This document shows, piece by piece, positions 8,466 to 48,314 of a DNA stretch of 48,314 nucleotides. This stretch comes from Oscillibacter sp. (GTDB taxonomy: Bacteria; Bacillota; Clostridia; Oscillospirales; Oscillospiraceae), in assembly GCA_017482345.1 (NCBI GenBank), contig JAFUNB010000012.1:1-48314 (forward strand), given 5' to 3'. The notes under the pieces were generated by a model that was given only the letters and a program-made list of their open reading frames with translations, was not told the DNA's origin and searched no databases. The translations under genes and the position numbers were made by a program. The stretch's first letter is position 1. Each line of letters opens with the position of its first letter.

Positions 8466-8706
8466 GTTGTATGCATGATAGAGGCGCGAATGCCATCAGT
8501 ATGCTCTCCCGGACGGACAGGAATACCGGGGAGAGGGGAAAGGGACATTCGCCGAGGTTTCACGGCAGTGCCTGTCGCCGCGGAGCCGGGCTGTAGGATA
8601 AGATCCTGCGGACTGTCGTCCCAAAAGGGACGGAGCGCTGTCGTGGTTTTATATACCCTCTTTCGGGTGGTATGAAGTCATGACTCTGTCATGACTTTAT
8701 TTTTTT
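8466..8706 (+). promoter_or_regulatory. Lysine riboswitch (L box)
   Basis: The leader contains the L-box conserved elements in the right order: AGAGGCGCGA (8480-8489), AGTAT (8498-8502), GGGGAAAGG (8535-8543), GCCGAGG (8551-8557), CCGGGCTG (8586-8593) and GGACTGTC (8610-8617). An intrinsic terminator ends it just before the start codon of the transporter. Lysine binding should favour the terminator and shut off uptake. Together with the 8364-8465 stretch (terminator and promoter) this accounts for the whole 357-base gap. Confidence 0.9.
8675..8706 (+). terminator. Lysine-riboswitch terminator
   Basis: AAGTCATGAC (8675-8684), loop TCT, GTCATGACTT (8688-8697), then TATTTTTTT. It lies 14 bases before the start codon at 8721. 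Confidence 0.9.
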
Positions 8707-37995: not shown

Positions 37996-40900
37996 TTAAA
38001 TCTTGAAATATTCCCTGGCAGATTCAAACAGGTGCAGATCGTAATTGCCGGGGATGTTCTTATACAGGTCAGGACCGATGCGCTCGGCGTGACCCATCTT
38101 GCCAAAGACACGGCCATCGGGAGAGGTGATGCCCTCGATGGCCCAGACGGAGCCGTTGGGATTGAAGTCGATGTCCATGGTGGGCTTGCCGTTCAGATCC
38201 ACGTACTGGGTGGCCAGCTGGCCGTTTTCGGACAGCTTCTTCAGCAGCTCAGGACTGCACAGGAAGCGGCCCTCGCCGTGGGAGATGGGCACGTTCACCA
38301 CGTCGCCCACATTCACCTTGGCCAGCCAGGGAGAGCGGTTGGAGGCAACGCGGGTGCGGACGATCTTGGACTGGTGGCGGCCGATGACGTTGAAGGTCAA
38401 GGTGGGGCAGGTGTCATCGGTGTCGATGATCTCGCCGAAGGGCACCAGACCCAGCTTGATCAGCGCCTGGAAGCCATTGCAGATGCCCAGCATCAGACCA
38501 TCGCGGGTCTTCAGCAGATCCATGGTGGCGTCCCGGACCTCGGGATTGCGGAAGAAGGCGGTGATGAACTTGCCGGAGCCGTCGGGCTCGTCGCCGCCGG
38601 AGAAGCCGCCGGGGACGAAGATGATCTGGCTGTCGCGGGCAGCCTTGGCGAAGCGGGCGGCGGAGTCGGCCACGCCCTGGGCGGACTGGTTGTTGACCAC
38701 CAGGATCTCCGGCTCCAGACCGGCGCGCTCCACGGCGCGGGCGCTGTCATACTCGCAGTTGGTGCCGGGGAAGACGGGGATGAGGACCTTGGGCCGTGCG
38801 ATGCCCACCTTGGGAGCCACGCGGACGGCGGCAGGAGATGCCAGCACGGGGACCTCGGCGGGATCCAGCGGCGTGCGGCTGGGGTAGACGCCCTCCAGCA
38901 CATCCTCGTTCAGAGCCAGCAGCTCAGAGACGGGAGCGACATCGTCGCCGATGGAGATGAGACCATCGTCAGTGGTGACGCCCAGCAGCAGGGCGCTGTC
39001 GGTGTCCTCGGTCAGCTCGGCCACGATGGCACCGGGATACAGCATGTCCCAATCCACGTCGGTGCCGGCGGCGGAGAAGCCGACGCCGTTGCCGAAGGAC
39101 ATCTTCATGACGGCCTCGGCCACGCCGTTTTCCACAGCCCATGCTGCCTTGACCTTGCCGGCCTGGCTCAGTGCGTGGAAGGCCTCCCATGCGGCCTTCT
39201 TGCTGTCGGCGGTGTAGCCGGTGAAGAGGTACACGGGATGGCCGGCCTCCTTGAACTCGGGAGAGAGGACCTCGGCCGCCTTGATGGGGGCGATGGCGAA
39301 GGAGATCAGGGTGGGGGGAACGTCCAGATCCATGAAGGAGCCGGACATGGAGTCCTTGCCGCCGATGGCGGCGGCGCCCAGCTCCAGCTGTGCGTCCAGA
39401 CCGCCCAGCAGAGCGGAGAAGGGCTTGCCCCAGCGGGCAGGCTCGGTGCGCAGCTTCTCAAAGAACTCCTGGAAGGTCAGGTAGGCCTTTTTATAGTCAG
39501 CGCCGGCGGCCACCAGCTTGGCCATGGAGGTGTAAACGGCGTTGTAGGAACCGGTGTAGGGATCGACGCTGGACTGCTGGGGATCATAGCCCCATGCCAT
39601 GACGCTGGCCTGGTCGGTCTCCTGGTCGGGCAGGACGGGGAACAGGGCGGCCATGGCCTGGGCGGGGGTGCGCTGCGTTTTGCCGCCGAAGGGCATCAGC
39701 ACGCTGCCGCAGCCGATGGAGCCGTCGAAGCGCTCGGTCAGCTGGCGGCGGGAGGCGGACTTCAGGCTGGCAGCCATCTCCCGCAGGGAGCCGTACTGCT
39801 TCTCGCCCAGAGGAGCGCGGTCCTTTTCGGAAACGGCCACCTCGGCGTGCTTCACGGCGCCGTTGGTGTTCAGGAAGTCACGGGAGAGGTCGGCGATGAC
39901 GGCGCCGTTCCACTCCATGACCATGCGGGCCTCCTCGGTGACCACGGCCACCCGGTAGGCCTCCAGGTTTTCGCTTTCAGCAAAGGTGATGAACTTGTCC
40001 ACGTCCTCGGCAGCCACCACCACGGCCATGCGCTCCTGAGACTCGGAGATGGCCAGCTCGGTGCCGTCCAGACCGTCGTACTTCTTGCGAACGGCGTCCA
40101 GATCGATCTTCAGGCCGTCGGCCAGCTCGCCGATGGCAACGGAAACACCGCCGGCGCCGAAGTCGTTGCAGCGCTTGATGAGGCGGGTGACCTCGCTGTT
40201 GCGGAACAGGCGCTGGATCTTGCGCTCCTCGGGGGCGTTGCCCTTCTGGACCTCGGAGGCCATGGTGGTCAGGGACTTCATGTTGTGGCTCTTGGAGGAG
40301 CCGGTGGCGCCGCCGATGCCGTCACGGCCGGTGCGGCCGCCCAGCAGGATGACCACATCGCCGGGGGCGGGACGCTCGCGGCGGACATTGTAGGCGGGAG
40401 CGGCAGCCACCACCACGCCGCACTCCATGCGCTTGGCGATGAAGCCCTCGTGGTAGACCTCGGCCACATGGCCGGTGGCCAGGCCGATCTGGTTGCCGTA
40501 GGAGGAATAGCCGGCGGCTGCCGTCTGGCACAGCTTGCGCTGGGGCAGCTTGCCGGGAGTGGTCTCACTCAGGGGCACACGGGGATCGCCGGCGCCGGTG
40601 AGACGCATGGCCTGATGCACATAGGCGCGGCCGGACAGGGGGTCACGGATGCAGCCGCCGATGCAGGTGGCGGCGCCGCCGAAGGGTTCGATCTCGGTGG
40701 GGTGGTTGTGGGTCTCATTTTTGAACATCAGCAGCCAGTCCTGCTCCTCACCGTTGACGGTGGCGGTGGCATGGATGGAGCAGGCGTTGATCTCCTCGCT
40801 CTCATCCAGCTCCGGCAGCAGGCCCCGTTTCTTCAGGGTCTTGGCACCGATGGTGGCAATGTCCATCAGAGTCTGGGGGCGCTTTGCGGCCTTCTCCTCG

Positions 40901-41673
40901 CCGTAGACCTCCACGCGGGCAGCCAGATAGCGCTCATAGGCGGCCTGGATCTGGGCGTCGTCGATCTTCACGTTGTCGATATGAGTGGAGAAGGTGGTGT
41001 GGCGGCAGTGGTCGGACCAGTAGGTGTCCACCACGCGGATCTCGGTGATGGTGGGATCCCGCTTCTCGTCGTCGCGGAAATAGGCCTGCAGGAACTTCAG
41101 ATCGTCCATGTCCATGGCCAGACCCAGCTTGTCCAGCAGGGCGCTCAGTACGGCCTCGTCCATGGAAATGAAGCCCTCCACAGTCTCCACGGTGGTGGGG
41201 ATGGTGGACTCCACCTGCAGCGTCTTAGGCTTGCCCAGACGGGCCTCCCGGGACTCCACGGGGTTGATGACGTATTCCTTGATTTTCTTGACTTCCTGCT
41301 TGCTCAGCTCGCCGGAGAGCAGATACACCTTGGCGGCGCGGACCGTGGGGCGCTCGCCCTGGGTCATCAGCTGGATGCACTGGCTGGCGGAGTCGGCACG
41401 CTGGTCGAACTGGCCGGGTAGAGCCTCCGCGGCGAAGACGGTGAAATCGCCCTCGGGCAGTTTCTCGGTGGCAAAGTCCACCTGCGGCTCGGAGAACACG
41501 GTCTGTACGGCGCGCTCAAACACGTCCTTCTTCAGACCCTCCACGTCATAGCGGTTGACGAGGCGCAGATCCGTCAGGGCGGTGATGCCCAGCAGGGTGC
41601 GCAGCTCGTTCAGCAAACCGGCGGCCTCATGGCGCAGACCGGGCTTTTTTTCTACAAAAATGCGTCTTACCAT
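37996..41673 (-). CDS. purL: Phosphoribosylformylglycinamidine synthase, single-chain type
   Basis: A 1225-residue FGAM synthase in one chain: an N-terminal PurS-like part, two AIRS-like ATPase repeats (FKNETHNHPTEIEPFGGAAT at about residue 310; GGKDSMSGS at about 765) and a C-terminal glutaminase. The glutaminase has the Cys nucleophile in MLGICNGFQ, FVPGGFSGGDEPDGSG before it and the His-Glu pair in ISHGEGRF. It makes FGAM from FGAR, ATP and glutamine. Bacilli use separate PurS, PurQ and PurL; the fused form is typical of this clostridial clade. ATG 41673 follows GGAGG that lies inside the end of purD; the in-frame TTG at 41682 is too close to it. It is 5 bases from purD. Confidence 0.95.
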   Translation of the reverse strand: MVRRIFVEKKPGLRHEAAGLLNELRTLLGITALTDLRLVNRYDVEGLKKDVFERAVQTVFSEPQVDFATEKLPEGDFTVFAAEALPGQFDQRADSASQCIQLMTQGERPTVRAAKVYLLSGELSKQEVKKIKEYVINPVESREARLGKPKTLQVESTIPTTVETVEGFISMDEAVLSALLDKLGLAMDMDDLKFLQAYFRDDEKRDPTITEIRVVDTYWSDHCRHTTFSTHIDNVKIDDAQIQAAYERYLAARVEVYGEEKAAKRPQTLMDIATIGAKTLKKRGLLPELDESEEINACSIHATATVNGEEQDWLLMFKNETHNHPTEIEPFGGAATCIGGCIRDPLSGRAYVHQAMRLTGAGDPRVPLSETTPGKLPQRKLCQTAAAGYSSYGNQIGLATGHVAEVYHEGFIAKRMECGVVVAAAPAYNVRRERPAPGDVVILLGGRTGRDGIGGATGSSKSHNMKSLTTMASEVQKGNAPEERKIQRLFRNSEVTRLIKRCNDFGAGGVSVAIGELADGLKIDLDAVRKKYDGLDGTELAISESQERMAVVVAAEDVDKFITFAESENLEAYRVAVVTEEARMVMEWNGAVIADLSRDFLNTNGAVKHAEVAVSEKDRAPLGEKQYGSLREMAASLKSASRRQLTERFDGSIGCGSVLMPFGGKTQRTPAQAMAALFPVLPDQETDQASVMAWGYDPQQSSVDPYTGSYNAVYTSMAKLVAAGADYKKAYLTFQEFFEKLRTEPARWGKPFSALLGGLDAQLELGAAAIGGKDSMSGSFMDLDVPPTLISFAIAPIKAAEVLSPEFKEAGHPVYLFTGYTADSKKAAWEAFHALSQAGKVKAAWAVENGVAEAVMKMSFGNGVGFSAAGTDVDWDMLYPGAIVAELTEDTDSALLLGVTTDDGLISIGDDVAPVSELLALNEDVLEGVYPSRTPLDPAEVPVLASPAAVRVAPKVGIARPKVLIPVFPGTNCEYDSARAVERAGLEPEILVVNNQSAQGVADSAARFAKAARDSQIIFVPGGFSGGDEPDGSGKFITAFFRNPEVRDATMDLLKTRDGLMLGICNGFQALIKLGLVPFGEIIDTDDTCPTLTFNVIGRHQSKIVRTRVASNRSPWLAKVNVGDVVNVPISHGEGRFLCSPELLKKLSENGQLATQYVDLNGKPTMDIDFNPNGSVWAIEGITSPDGRVFGKMGHAERIGPDLYKNIPGNYDLHLFESAREYFKI

Positions 41674-41678
41674 TGTTC

Positions 41679-42956
<1,278 letters not shown>

Positions 42957-44434: not shown

Positions 44435-45040
44435 TCAGCTTTCAGTAATTTGTTTGCACAGCAGCTCCGTGGCCTGGGGCAGCAGGATCCATTCGGCCTG
44501 CTCCATGACCCGGCGCTGCAGGGTCTCGGCGGTGTCCTCGGGGAGAATGTCCACGGCCTTCTGCAGCAGGATGCGGCCGCCGTCGGGGATCTCGTTGACC
44601 AGGTGGACGGTGGCGCCGGTGACCTTGACGCCCTTCTCCAGTGCGGCTTCGTGGACCTTCAGACCGTACATGCCCTTGCCGCAGAAGGAGGGGATCAGGG
44701 AGGGATGGACGTTGATGATGCGCTCCGGCCACTGACGGACGAAGGCTTCGGACAGGATGGAAAGGAAGCCGGCCAGCACGATGACATCGATGCTGTATTC
44801 CGCCAGCTGTTCAGAGAGGGCGGCCTCGAATTCCTCCTGGGTTTTGCCCCTGCGGGGGACGGCCACGCCGGGCACGCCGTGGTTGGCGGCACGGGTCAGG
44901 GCGTAGGCGGTCTCATTGCTGGCGCAGACCAGAACGATCTGGCCATGGGGGATAAGGCCGGATTCCTGGGCGTTCAGCAGGGCCTCCAGATTGGTGCCGC
45001 CGCCGGAGACCAGCACGGCGATGTTGGCCTTTCTCAGCAT
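44435..45040 (-). CDS. purN: Phosphoribosylglycinamide formyltransferase
   Basis: A 201-residue GAR transformylase using 10-formyl-tetrahydrofolate. It has the N-terminal phosphate loop [14 protein letters not shown] (about residues 9-22), [11 protein letters not shown] (about 86-96) and the active-site segment [18 protein letters not shown] (Asn-His at about 108-110), then [16 protein letters not shown] with the catalytic Asp. SFCGKGMYG is the known variant of the usual PxxPGLHT. It overlaps the end of purM by 7 bases, so the two are translationally coupled. Confidence 0.95.
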
Positions 45041-46059
45041 AAGGTCACCCGCTCGCCGCCCTCGGTGATCTCGCCGATGACATAGGCGCCGCAGTCCAGC
45101 GCGGCGATGGCCTTGTCCACATCGTTCTTGTCCACGATGACGGCCATGCCCACGCCCATGTTGTAGGTGTTGAACATGTCGTGCTCGGAGATGTTGCCCA
45201 TGCGCTGGAGCATGTGGAAGATGGCGGGAGTCTGAATGGCGGCCTTGTCGATCTTGGCGGACAGGCCGTCAGGCAGGCAGCGGGGAATATTCTCAAAGAA
45301 GCCGCCGCCGGTGATATGGCTGACACCGTGAACGGCGACAGACTCCATGCAGCGCAGCACGGGCTTCACATACAGGCGGGTGGGCTCCAGCAGGGCCTCG
45401 CCCAGGGTGCAGCCCAGCTCGTCAGAGTGCAGATTCAGGTTGGCGTGCTCCACGTTGAAGACCTTGCGGACCAGGGAGTAGCCGTTGGAGTGGATGCCGG
45501 AGGAGGGCAGGGCCAGGACCACGTCGCCGGCCTTCATGCTGTTTTGGTCGATGATCTTAGGTCTGTCCACGATGCCCACGCAGAAGCCGGCCAGATCATA
45601 GTCGTCAGCGGCCATGACGCCGGGATGCTCGGCGGTCTCGCCGCCGATGAGGGCACAGCCGGACTGGACGCAGCCCTCGGCCACGCCGGAGACCAGTGTG
45701 GCGACCTTCTCAGGATCGTTCTTGCCGATGGCGATGTAGTCCAGGAAGAACAGCGGTCTCGCGCCGCAGCAGATGATGTCGTTGGCGCACATGGCCACGC
45801 AGTCGATGCCGATGGTGTCGTGCTTGTCCAGCAGCTGGGCAATGCGGATCTTGGTGCCCACACCGTCGGTGCCGGAGACCAGAACCGGCTCGGTCATGCC
45901 GGCCAGATCAGGAGCGAACAGACCGCCGAAGCCGCCGATGCCGGACACGACGCCGGGGATCATGGTGCGCTCCACATGCTTCTTCATGAGCTTGACGCCC
46001 TCATAGCCAGCCTCGATGTTGACGCCGGCCTCGCGGTAGCTGTCAGAAAAACTACGCAT
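45034..46059 (-). CDS. purM: Phosphoribosylformylglycinamidine cyclo-ligase
   Basis: A 341-residue AIR synthetase: [23 protein letters not shown] at the start, then [41 protein letters not shown] (about residues 77-102) and [13 protein letters not shown] (about 128-140), with [10 protein letters not shown] further on. It closes FGAM to AIR using ATP. The start at 46059 matches family N-termini; its ribosome binding site AAAGGA is about 12 bases away, slightly long. In the 110-base gap to purF there is a GGCCGCC/GGCGGCC hairpin (46134-46157) without a T tract. Confidence 0.95.
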
Positions 46060-46169: not shown

Positions 46170-47594
46170 TTATTCTTTGCCGTTCCAGCAGTAAGTGCAG
46201 ACCTTGTCCCGGTCGATGCCGATGGCCTCCAGAACACCGTCCAGAGACTGATAGCTCAGGGAGTCAAAGCCGAACTTTTCGCAGATGCGCTTGAGCAGAC
46301 ACTGGCCCCGCTCAGTGGTGACGTCGGAATATTCCTCCACATGCTGCTGGCCCTCGTCGCCCTCCAGCTCCTGAATGACCCGCCGGGCCAGCAGATCCAT
46401 ATCGGAATTGCCCCGGGAGAAGTTCAGGTACTTGCAGGCATACATGATGGGCGGGCAGGCGGAACGCATATGCACTTCCGCTGCGCCGGATTCATACAGG
46501 AAATCGACGGTCTCCTGCAGCTGGGTGCCGCGGACGATGGAGTCATCCACGAACAGCAGCTTCTTGCCCTCGATCAGCTCGGGCACAGGGATCTGCTTCA
46601 TTTTGGCCACCTGATTGCGGACCTTCTGATCGCTGGGGGTGAAGGAGCGGGGCCAGGTGGGGGTGTATTTCACAAAGGGCCGGGCGAAGGGCTTGCCGCT
46701 GCGGTTGGCGTAGCCGATGGCGTGGGGGATACCGGAATCGGGCACGCCGGCCACATAGTCCACCTTGGGCAGGCTGCCCCGCAGCACCTCGTCACGGGCC
46801 ATGATCTCGCCGTTGCGGTAGCGCATGACCTCTACGTTCATGCCTTCGTAGTTGGAGTTGGGATAGCCGTAATAGGTCCACAGGAAGCCGCAGATCTTCA
46901 TTCTGTCACCGGCGGGGGCCAGCGTCTCGTAGCCCTCGGCGGTAATGCGGACGATCTCCCGGGGGCCCAGCTCGTAGGCGTCCTCGTAGCCCAGCTTGTG
47001 ATAGGCGAAGGACTCGAAAGAGACACAGTGGCCATCCTCGCTTTTGCCGATGAGGACAGGCAGGCGGCCCAGCGCGTCACGGGCGGCGATAATGCCGTCC
47101 CGGGTCAGCAGCAGAATGGTCATGGAGCCGTCAATGACCTCCTGTGCGTGGAGGATGCCCTCCACCAGAGAATCCTTCTGGTTGATGAGGGCGGCCGTCA
47201 GTTCGGTGACATTGACCTTGCCGCTGCTCATGGCCATGAACTGATGGCCGTGGTCGGAGAAGTAGGTCTCCACCAGCTCGTCGGCGTTGTTGATGATGCC
47301 GACAGTGGTGATGGCGTACAGACCCAGATGGGAACGGACCAGCAGGGGCTGGGGATCCGTGTCGCTGATGCAGCCGATACCGCCGCAGCCATGGAAATCA
47401 TGCAGATCCTTTTCGAACTTCGTCCGGAAAGGCGTGTTTTCAATGTTGTGGATCTGGCGCTGGAAGCAGTCGTCGGAGGCGTCGTAGAAAGCCATACCGG
47501 CCCGCTTGGTGCCTAAGTGGGAGTGGTAGTCGACGCCGAAGAACACGTCAAGCACACAGTCCCGCTTGGAAATTGTGCCAAAAAAACCGCCCAT
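46170..47594 (-). CDS. purF: Amidophosphoribosyltransferase-like protein lacking the glutaminase nucleophile
   Basis: A 474-residue PurF-family protein. The phosphoribosyltransferase domain is intact: PRPP loop [13 protein letters not shown] (about residues 346-358), preceded by [14 protein letters not shown]. The N-terminal glutaminase domain is degenerate: it begins MGGFFG, where the family has Cys right after Met; GHVRY is replaced by GIGCIS and the HNG motif by TVG. An in-frame TAA two codons upstream of the ATG excludes a longer start with a Cys. Cys235, 387, 466 and 469 correspond to the four Fe-S ligands of B. subtilis PurF. It probably uses free ammonia or a separate amidotransferase, or is regulatory (inference). 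The start follows CAGGAG. Confidence 0.9.
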
Positions 47595-47634
47595 GGTCAG
47601 TTACTCCTGATCAAAGTTATTTGCGGGGAAGTCA

Positions 47635-48314
47635 TTACGCGAAGAACAGCTCGTTCAGCTTCATGGGATCGATGTACTCGCCATCCTTGTAGACACGCAT
47701 ATTGCCGGAGGCGATCTCGTCGATCAGCATGACGCTGCCGTCGGCGTCATAGCCGAACTCGAACTTGATGTCGTACAGATCCAAACCCTTTTCCTTCAGA
47801 TCATCAGCCACGATCTTGGTGATGGCCTGGGTCATGGCCTTCAGCTCGTCATACTGCTGGGCGGTCATAACGCCCAGATCCACCAGACCGTCCTTCGTGA
47901 CCAGAGGATCACCCTTTTCGTCGTTTTTGAAGGTGGTCTCCACATAGGCGGGCAGATCCTGGCCCAGCTCGCAATAGTCGCTGTAACGACGGTAAAAGGA
48001 GCCTACAGCCTTGTAGCGGCAGATGACCTCCAGGCCCTTGCCGAAGACCTTGCCGGGCAGGACTTCCATGGTGGTATTGGCCAGATCGGCACTGACATAG
48101 TGAGTCTTGATGCCGGCGGCATTGATTTTCTCAAAGAAATAGATTGACATGCGCAGGTTCACATCGCCCACGCCCTCGATGGTCAGGCCAACAGAATTTT
48201 CGCCGGGATCGAACACGCCGTCCTTACCGGTGCAGTCGTCCTTGAACTTGAGCAGGCAGTTGCCATTTTCCAGCTTGTAAACATTCTTGGTCTTGCCAGT
48301 GTAAACGAGTTCCA
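47635..48314 (-). CDS. purC: SAICAR synthetase (5' end cut by the window)
   Basis: 225 residues of a PurC protein, open to the window edge; only the first one or two residues seem to be missing. It begins [17 protein letters not shown], the ATP-binding strand region. It continues with [15 protein letters not shown] and [30 protein letters not shown] (about residues 95-109) and [24 protein letters not shown] (about 185-208). It condenses CAIR with aspartate. It lies upstream of purF with a 40-base gap and is the first operon gene seen; promoter and any purE lie outside the window. Confidence 0.95.

Follow-up and report, generated by a model that had tools for sequence, protein, structure and literature searches.

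MGG-PurF, a homologue of PurF that begins with Met-Gly-Gly, probably represents a conserved bacterial branch of this family that has permanently lost the use of glutamine and instead combines PRPP with free ammonia to form phosphoribosylamine (PRA), judging from the sequences of the protein and its relatives. In the proposed mechanism, the transferase site, which is intact, would let PRPP react directly with free ammonia to yield PRA, and the rebuilt N-terminal domain would now function as a scaffold or ligand site. The gene, which encodes 474 aa, lies on contig JAFUNB010000012.1 (assembly GCA_017482345.1) of Oscillibacter sp., in a stretch of 48,314 nt that was analysed whole and is referred to here as the window. 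Alignments indicate that lacking the N-terminal Cys while retaining the cluster cysteines and the PRPP site is a trait of the family. Many gut bacteria carry MGG-PurF, and some appear to rely on it alone.

The gene and its glutaminase domain

The N-terminus of MGG-PurF reads MGGFFG, with Gly2 at the place of the Cys. The in-frame codons upstream of the ATG are ACC, CTG and then TAA (Table 1). Because this stop lies two codons 5' of the ATG and is accompanied by a Shine-Dalgarno-like AGGAG, the start is fixed and an upstream start that would add a Cys is impossible, ruling out a start-site error as the cause of Cys loss. The NCBIfam PurF model TIGR01134 gives MGG-PurF 172.4 bits, short of its curated cut-off of 350, while Pfam GATase_7 gives 27.7 bits (cut-off 25) and phmmer matches the protein to B. 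subtilis PurF (1ao0) with E = 2.3e-41. The solved structures that match MGG-PurF or its family profile are all PurF-type amidophosphoribosyltransferases, that of B. subtilis first. Database annotation of MGG-PurF sequences is either amidophosphoribosyltransferase or hypothetical protein.

Table 1. Coordinates of MGG-PurF, its parts and the neighbouring purine genes in the window
Feature	Position	Strand	Basis
MGG-PurF, glutaminase-dead PurF homologue	46170..47594	-	ORF, profile scores, 1ao0 match
In-frame TAA (47601-47603) and Shine-Dalgarno-like AGGAG (47604-47608)	47601..47608	-	sequence
Degenerate class II GATase (Ntn) domain, about residues 1-228, edge estimated	46911..47594	-	alignments, 109 and 132 MGG rows vs 41 canonical
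Junction of residues 76/77, 8-residue glutamine loop absent	47366..47367	-	0 residues in 132/132 MGG, 8 in 41/41 canonical
Phosphoribosyltransferase domain and C-terminus, about residues 229-474	46173..46910	-	1ao0 match, alignments
PRPP loop, residues 347-358	46521..46556	-	D350, D351, R355, G356, T357 in 132/132 rows
Cys235, Fe-S ligand position	46890..46892	-	132/132 MGG, 41/41 canonical rows
Cys387, Fe-S ligand position	46434..46436	-	132/132 MGG, 41/41 canonical rows
Cys466 and Cys469 (CTYC), Fe-S ligand positions	46188..46199	-	132/132 MGG, 41/41 canonical rows
purC, divergent type, cut by contig end, upstream of MGG-PurF	47635..48312	-	TIGR00081 110.8 bits, below cut-off 189.9
purM, directly downstream of MGG-PurF	45034..46059	-	TIGR00878 440.1 bits
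purN	44435..45040	-	TIGR00639 187.4 bits
purV, AICAR formyltransferase without cyclohydrolase part, 392 aa	43243..44421	-	NF005492 716.1 bits
purD	41679..42956	-	TIGR00877 521.4 bits
purL, single-chain FGAM synthase	37996..41682	-	TIGR01857 1711.5 bits

The aligned MGG set comprises 132 rows from two phyla, 129 of them distinct (the pairs L013/L014, L024/L025 and L035/L215 are identical), drawn from Oscillospiraceae, other Clostridia, Peptoclostridium, three Bacteroidota records and two virus-collection records. A copy of the window (L001) and duplicates of included loci (L191-L195) were excluded, and N-terminal counts use 131 rows, as L006 has no N-terminus. The 41 canonical rows used for comparison were selected on the Cys motif itself, so that their Cys holds by construction and is no independent test. 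Five of the 46 canonical ORFs were dropped when their N-terminus was not matched by the Cys-motif pattern; three of these (L019, L021, L046) have the Cys motif, HRGQE, GHVRY, HNGN and the PRPP loop, L139 has HRGQE, GHVRY, HNGN and the PRPP loop, and L135 has HRGQE and the PRPP loop.

In the window protein, Gly2 replaces Cys, HLG replaces HRG and TVG replaces HNG. The earlier note had read Met-Gly-Gly for Met-Cys-Gly and had found the GHVRY and HNG motifs gone; the ORF and its fixed start bear out the first point, and the protein has GCISD as well as TVG at the places of the two motifs. These losses extend to the whole family. Position 2 is Gly in 125 and Ser in 6 of the 131 rows with an N-terminus and Cys in none, which refutes a Cys mutation confined to a single genome and makes loss of the nucleophile a family trait. 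The Arg of HRG is Leu in 132/132 MGG rows (HLG; HLA in one row), the Asn of HNG is Val or Ile in 132/132, the Asp column of the glutamine site holds no Asp in 132/132, and loss of the glutamine loop takes the loop Arg with it, again in 132/132. In contrast, HRG, HNG, Asp and the 8-residue loop are intact in 41/41 canonical rows. MGG-PurF therefore lacks the N-terminal catalytic Cys and the glutamine-site residues and loop by which EC 2.4.2.14 is recognised. Two substitutes for the nucleophile are disfavoured: Cys75, as this position is Ile in 5/132 MGG rows, and Ser2, as Ser is found in just 6/131.

The domain has invariant residues of its own, among them D16, G20, D22, Y23, S25, H26, L27, G33, I48, F56, R57, F60, S77 and S88, and it consequently looks rebuilt rather than decayed. 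It is too conserved for a relic, which indicates that some further role exists; this is counted against the ammonia-using reading given above. The many invariant polar residues could form a docking face, and split enzymes such as PurL/PurQ and CarA/CarB exist, so MGG-PurF could be a synthase subunit on whose N-terminal domain a separate glutaminase encoded elsewhere docks to deliver ammonia. This arrangement is unlikely, as no glutaminase gene was recognised beside MGG-PurF in the operons read, where a few ORFs were scanned, or among 10 scanned neighbours of distant copies.

Transferase site, conservation and gene context

As the earlier note had it, the PRPP loop and Cys235, Cys387, Cys466 and Cys469 are retained, and the cysteines align with the canonical PurF cysteines. 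The five PRPP-loop residues counted are present in 132/132 MGG rows, and R316, F318, Q323, R326 and K333 are also kept in the family alignment. The flexible loop, by contrast, is altered to an invariant KYTPTW.RSF. The four cysteine ligands of the Fe-S type of PurF, the B. subtilis kind, are likewise present in 132/132 MGG rows, and we infer that MGG-PurF binds a 4Fe-4S cluster.

The 80 nearest genome loci all encode MGG-PurF, with Gly-Gly at positions 2-3 in 79 and L006 cut before them. At the same 15 loci with both proteins, mean identity is 86.6% for MGG-PurF vs 72.5% for canonical PurF, and 84.5% vs 71.4% for the N-terminal domain, a comparison in which the canonical copies are possibly of mixed origin and dN/dS is rough, with synonymous sites near saturation. 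Both domains of MGG-PurF are, on this sequence evidence, under strong constraint.

In the window, MGG-PurF sits between purC and purM in a purine operon (Table 1, in which purV is a label coined in this analysis for AICAR formyltransferase without cyclohydrolase). The earlier placement of the gene at the head of the purine operon therefore holds for membership and is slightly off in position, as purC precedes MGG-PurF. In some relatives, a purE-like gene is found farther upstream. Of the 80 nearest loci, 52 have purC and 13 have canonical purF upstream of MGG-PurF, with none of the genes queried there in 15; downstream of it, 54 have purM, 13 have canonical purF and 9 have a second purC, with none of the genes queried there in 4. 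The run purC-MGG-purM is uninterrupted in 38/80, and canonical purF is present within 35/80. Two types of purC are found (e.g. L003:9327-12072), of which the divergent one precedes MGG-PurF, as in the window, and the other precedes canonical purF, a layout that would fit the addition of a purC-MGG module to the operon. Elsewhere in the window, a lysine riboswitch (Rfam RF00168, 102.6 bits) lies at 8471-8648 (+).

Distant clostridial copies have no purine operon within about 8 kb. In one clostridial family, a full-length CarB without CarA lies directly upstream of MGG-PurF at 5 loci (L146, L147, L152, L153, L155), which come from 4/9 genomes searched and from one lineage. Each of these 4 genomes has a second CarB elsewhere, preceded by an ORF of 360-362 aa that is CarA in the one scanned; the CarB beside MGG-PurF is possibly an ammonia-using carbamoyl-phosphate synthetase. 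In 3/3 Bacteroidota records, pepT and gcvT follow MGG-PurF (two by annotation, one by tblastn); pepT also follows it in Peptoclostridium. The MGG-pepT loci (L218:10001-12800, L219:8001-11783, L220:10001-13904) display a neighbourhood common to two phyla. GcvT releases ammonia, and the CarB, gcvT and pepT settings, in which free ammonia is made or used, fit an ammonia mechanism without proving it. At 8 loci of distant copies, Rfam models at the gathering threshold identified no riboswitch beside MGG-PurF; in L147, a ZMP/ZTP element lies about 5 kb away.

These non-purine neighbourhoods, the altered flexible loop and the new invariant residues of the N-terminal domain would also suit a transferase that uses PRPP with a different amine or in a different pathway, with the rebuilt domain binding a new donor. 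Such a role is very improbable, as MGG-PurF takes the place of purF in purine operons and is the sole PurF found in some genomes. A tentative proposal that retains ammonia as the donor is that MGG-PurF might be a widespread PRPP aminotransferase of a second class, found in anaerobes, with its glutaminase domain rebuilt as an ammonia-sensing or ammonia-feeding ligand site (DY(H/N)SHLG, FR..F, GIG(C/I)IS), working beside CarB without CarA, GcvT and PepT and opening a route into nucleotide synthesis that is fed by ammonia and able to replace glutamine-dependent PurF outright.

Assignment of the family to phages or plasmids was considered and rejected, the support for it, namely one viral contig, a single 'Bacteriophage' record that is unverified and four plasmid records holding close relatives, being insufficient. 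The unverified 'Bacteriophage sp.' record with MGG-PurF (L222, MT836108.1) resembles bacterial DNA within a phage collection, and two so-called plasmids of gut Bacteroidota (L219, L220) carry rplU and rpmA, or eno, and resemble pieces of chromosome.

Genomes with and without a canonical PurF

The family sample comprises 90 genomes including the window's own, with which it has 41 MGG carriers and without which it has 40. Canonical PurF was sought in it with the MGG query alone; in a phylum sample of 299 genomes, this query left 6 without a match and missed no PurF-bearing genome, as a further search of those 6 gave only a hit near 8e-32 (GlmS level) in two and none in four. The 89 family genomes at least 95% complete divide into 24 with both proteins, 16 with MGG-PurF only, 32 with canonical PurF only and 17 with neither. 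The last group (e.g. G493, 2 contigs, 100%) are perhaps purine auxotrophs. At the 16 MGG-only loci, purM adjoins MGG-PurF in 14, and the stretch read includes purL in 8, the single-contig G468 not among them. The full run purC-MGG-purM-purN-purV-purD-purL is present in 6/16 (G496, G495, G439, G428, G484, G491), with an IMP cyclohydrolase-like gene between purN and purV in G496. The two loci without an adjoining purM are those of G433, with only purC beside MGG-PurF, and G503, with no purine gene nearby.

Other samples divide differently. In a genus sample of 86 genomes, 12 of 26 MGG carriers at least 90% complete have no canonical match over the cut-off, a count that falls to 11/26 once a canonical fragment, located at the end of a contig of G039, is taken into account. 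In the phylum sample, 18 genomes including the window's own carry MGG-PurF, and the other 17 all have canonical PurF. Of 38 genomes traced from 38 of the 80 nearest loci, 30 have canonical PurF, including all 11 isolates recognised; the remaining 8 are metagenome assemblies, one of which (L008, the locus of G039) is that with the canonical fragment. With canonical PurF in so many carriers, most need not depend on MGG-PurF. In the window's own assembly, neither a second PurF nor a GATase_6 match was found, which is not decisive at 72% completeness. Its nearest relative, G013 (MGG-PurF 91% identical), has three canonical purF copies, carried by contigs 5.5 to 18.6 kb long (L170, L171, L172); these differ from one another, with purC-like and GlmS-like matches nearby, and at 4% contamination are perhaps on contaminant contigs. 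In G498, one of the 24 family genomes with both proteins, canonical purF is split over two frames (L207:6194-7602), through decay or an assembly fault.

That every carrier has a canonical PurF, with MGG-PurF an accessory paralogue and the MGG-only genomes mere assembly gaps, is suggested by the fragment in G039, the three copies in G013 and the presence of both proteins in all 11 recognised isolates of the 38-genome set. This explanation is nonetheless barely credible, as the MGG-only set includes the single-contig G468, the 6-contig G496, G474 and G495, which are listed as 100% complete, and the cultured isolate Pseudoflavonifractor phocaeensis An569 (G500; L035, identical gene). Furthermore, the MGG-only state recurs: a tree built from 84 MGG proteins requires 16 changes in the label of both or only, at least 8 of them forced by starred branches.

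The MGG-only genomes also bear on the suggestion that the protein is a regulator. PurR and PyrR are known regulators with the PRTase fold, and MGG-PurF adjoins canonical purF in both orders at many loci, which fits a shared complex, so it could be a regulator or partner of canonical PurF that binds PRPP or nucleotides and does not form PRA. It is quite unlikely that this is its role, since no canonical PurF to regulate was found in 16/40 family carriers, 14 of these 16 keep purM adjoining MGG-PurF, and the PRTase loop residues are invariant.

The earlier note had reasoned that the committing step would need ammonia, a separate glutaminase or a second PurF. The second PurF is present in many relatives and missing from those 16/40 family carriers at least 95% complete, and ammonia use is what we infer to be the best supported of these options. 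No PurF-independent mechanism had yet met the purine requirement in Salmonella, according to the available part of PMC3485032, which speaks for a need of MGG-only genomes for an enzyme that really forms PRA. Additionally, ammonia is still a substrate for E. coli PurF that lacks Cys1 (Mei and Zalkin 1989, as cited in the available part of PMC3261824).

Relation to known systems

Standard teaching has purine synthesis depend on glutamine at its committed step. Should MGG-PurF need nothing but ammonia as its nitrogen source and no partner, common gut anaerobes would use the ammonia around them directly to begin their purines, annotation would assign its carriers the wrong reaction, and these bacteria would escape glutamine analogues directed at PurF. 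MGG-PurF would then also be a case of an Fe-S PurF in which the ligands of the cluster have survived the loss of the glutaminase, and the archaeal PurF' hypothesis of 2011 would gain a readily testable bacterial counterpart. No description of the bacterial MGG-PurF family was found in the literature searched, and one may exist elsewhere in print.

Loss of the nucleophile from a retained glutaminase domain has precedents, as beta-lactam synthetase and other relatives of AsnB without Cys1 keep a class II GATase domain. These enzymes share a nucleophile-less GATase with MGG-PurF and differ from it in synthase domain and pathway. MGG-PurF resembles B. subtilis PurF (GPATase; 1ao0, 1gph) in its PRPP loop, four cysteines and purine operon, and is unlike it in that the glutaminase residues and the glutamine loop are lost, the flexible loop is rebuilt and the TIGR01134 score falls below the cut-off. 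As described in the available part of PMC3261824, E. coli PurF C1 mutants lose glutamine use and keep ammonia use, as proposed for MGG-PurF; the mutants are laboratory changes in an otherwise intact site, whereas MGG-PurF represents a natural, long-conserved loss.

The idea of a Cys-less, ammonia-using PurF is already in print for archaea, and crenarchaeal PurF' is the nearest precedent for MGG-PurF. In the available part of their paper, Brown et al. (2011, PMC3261824) propose, as a proposal only, that crenarchaeal PurF' is an ammonia-dependent PRPP aminotransferase. By that description, both PurF' and MGG-PurF are PurF-like paralogues with no N-terminal Cys that are encoded near purF or other purine genes. 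The place of the Cys is taken by Ala or Val in many of the crenarchaeal proteins and by Gly or Ser in MGG-PurF. MGG-PurF further differs from PurF', as described there, in being bacterial, in the deletion of its glutamine loop, in having invariant residues of its own and in being the sole PurF found in some genomes.
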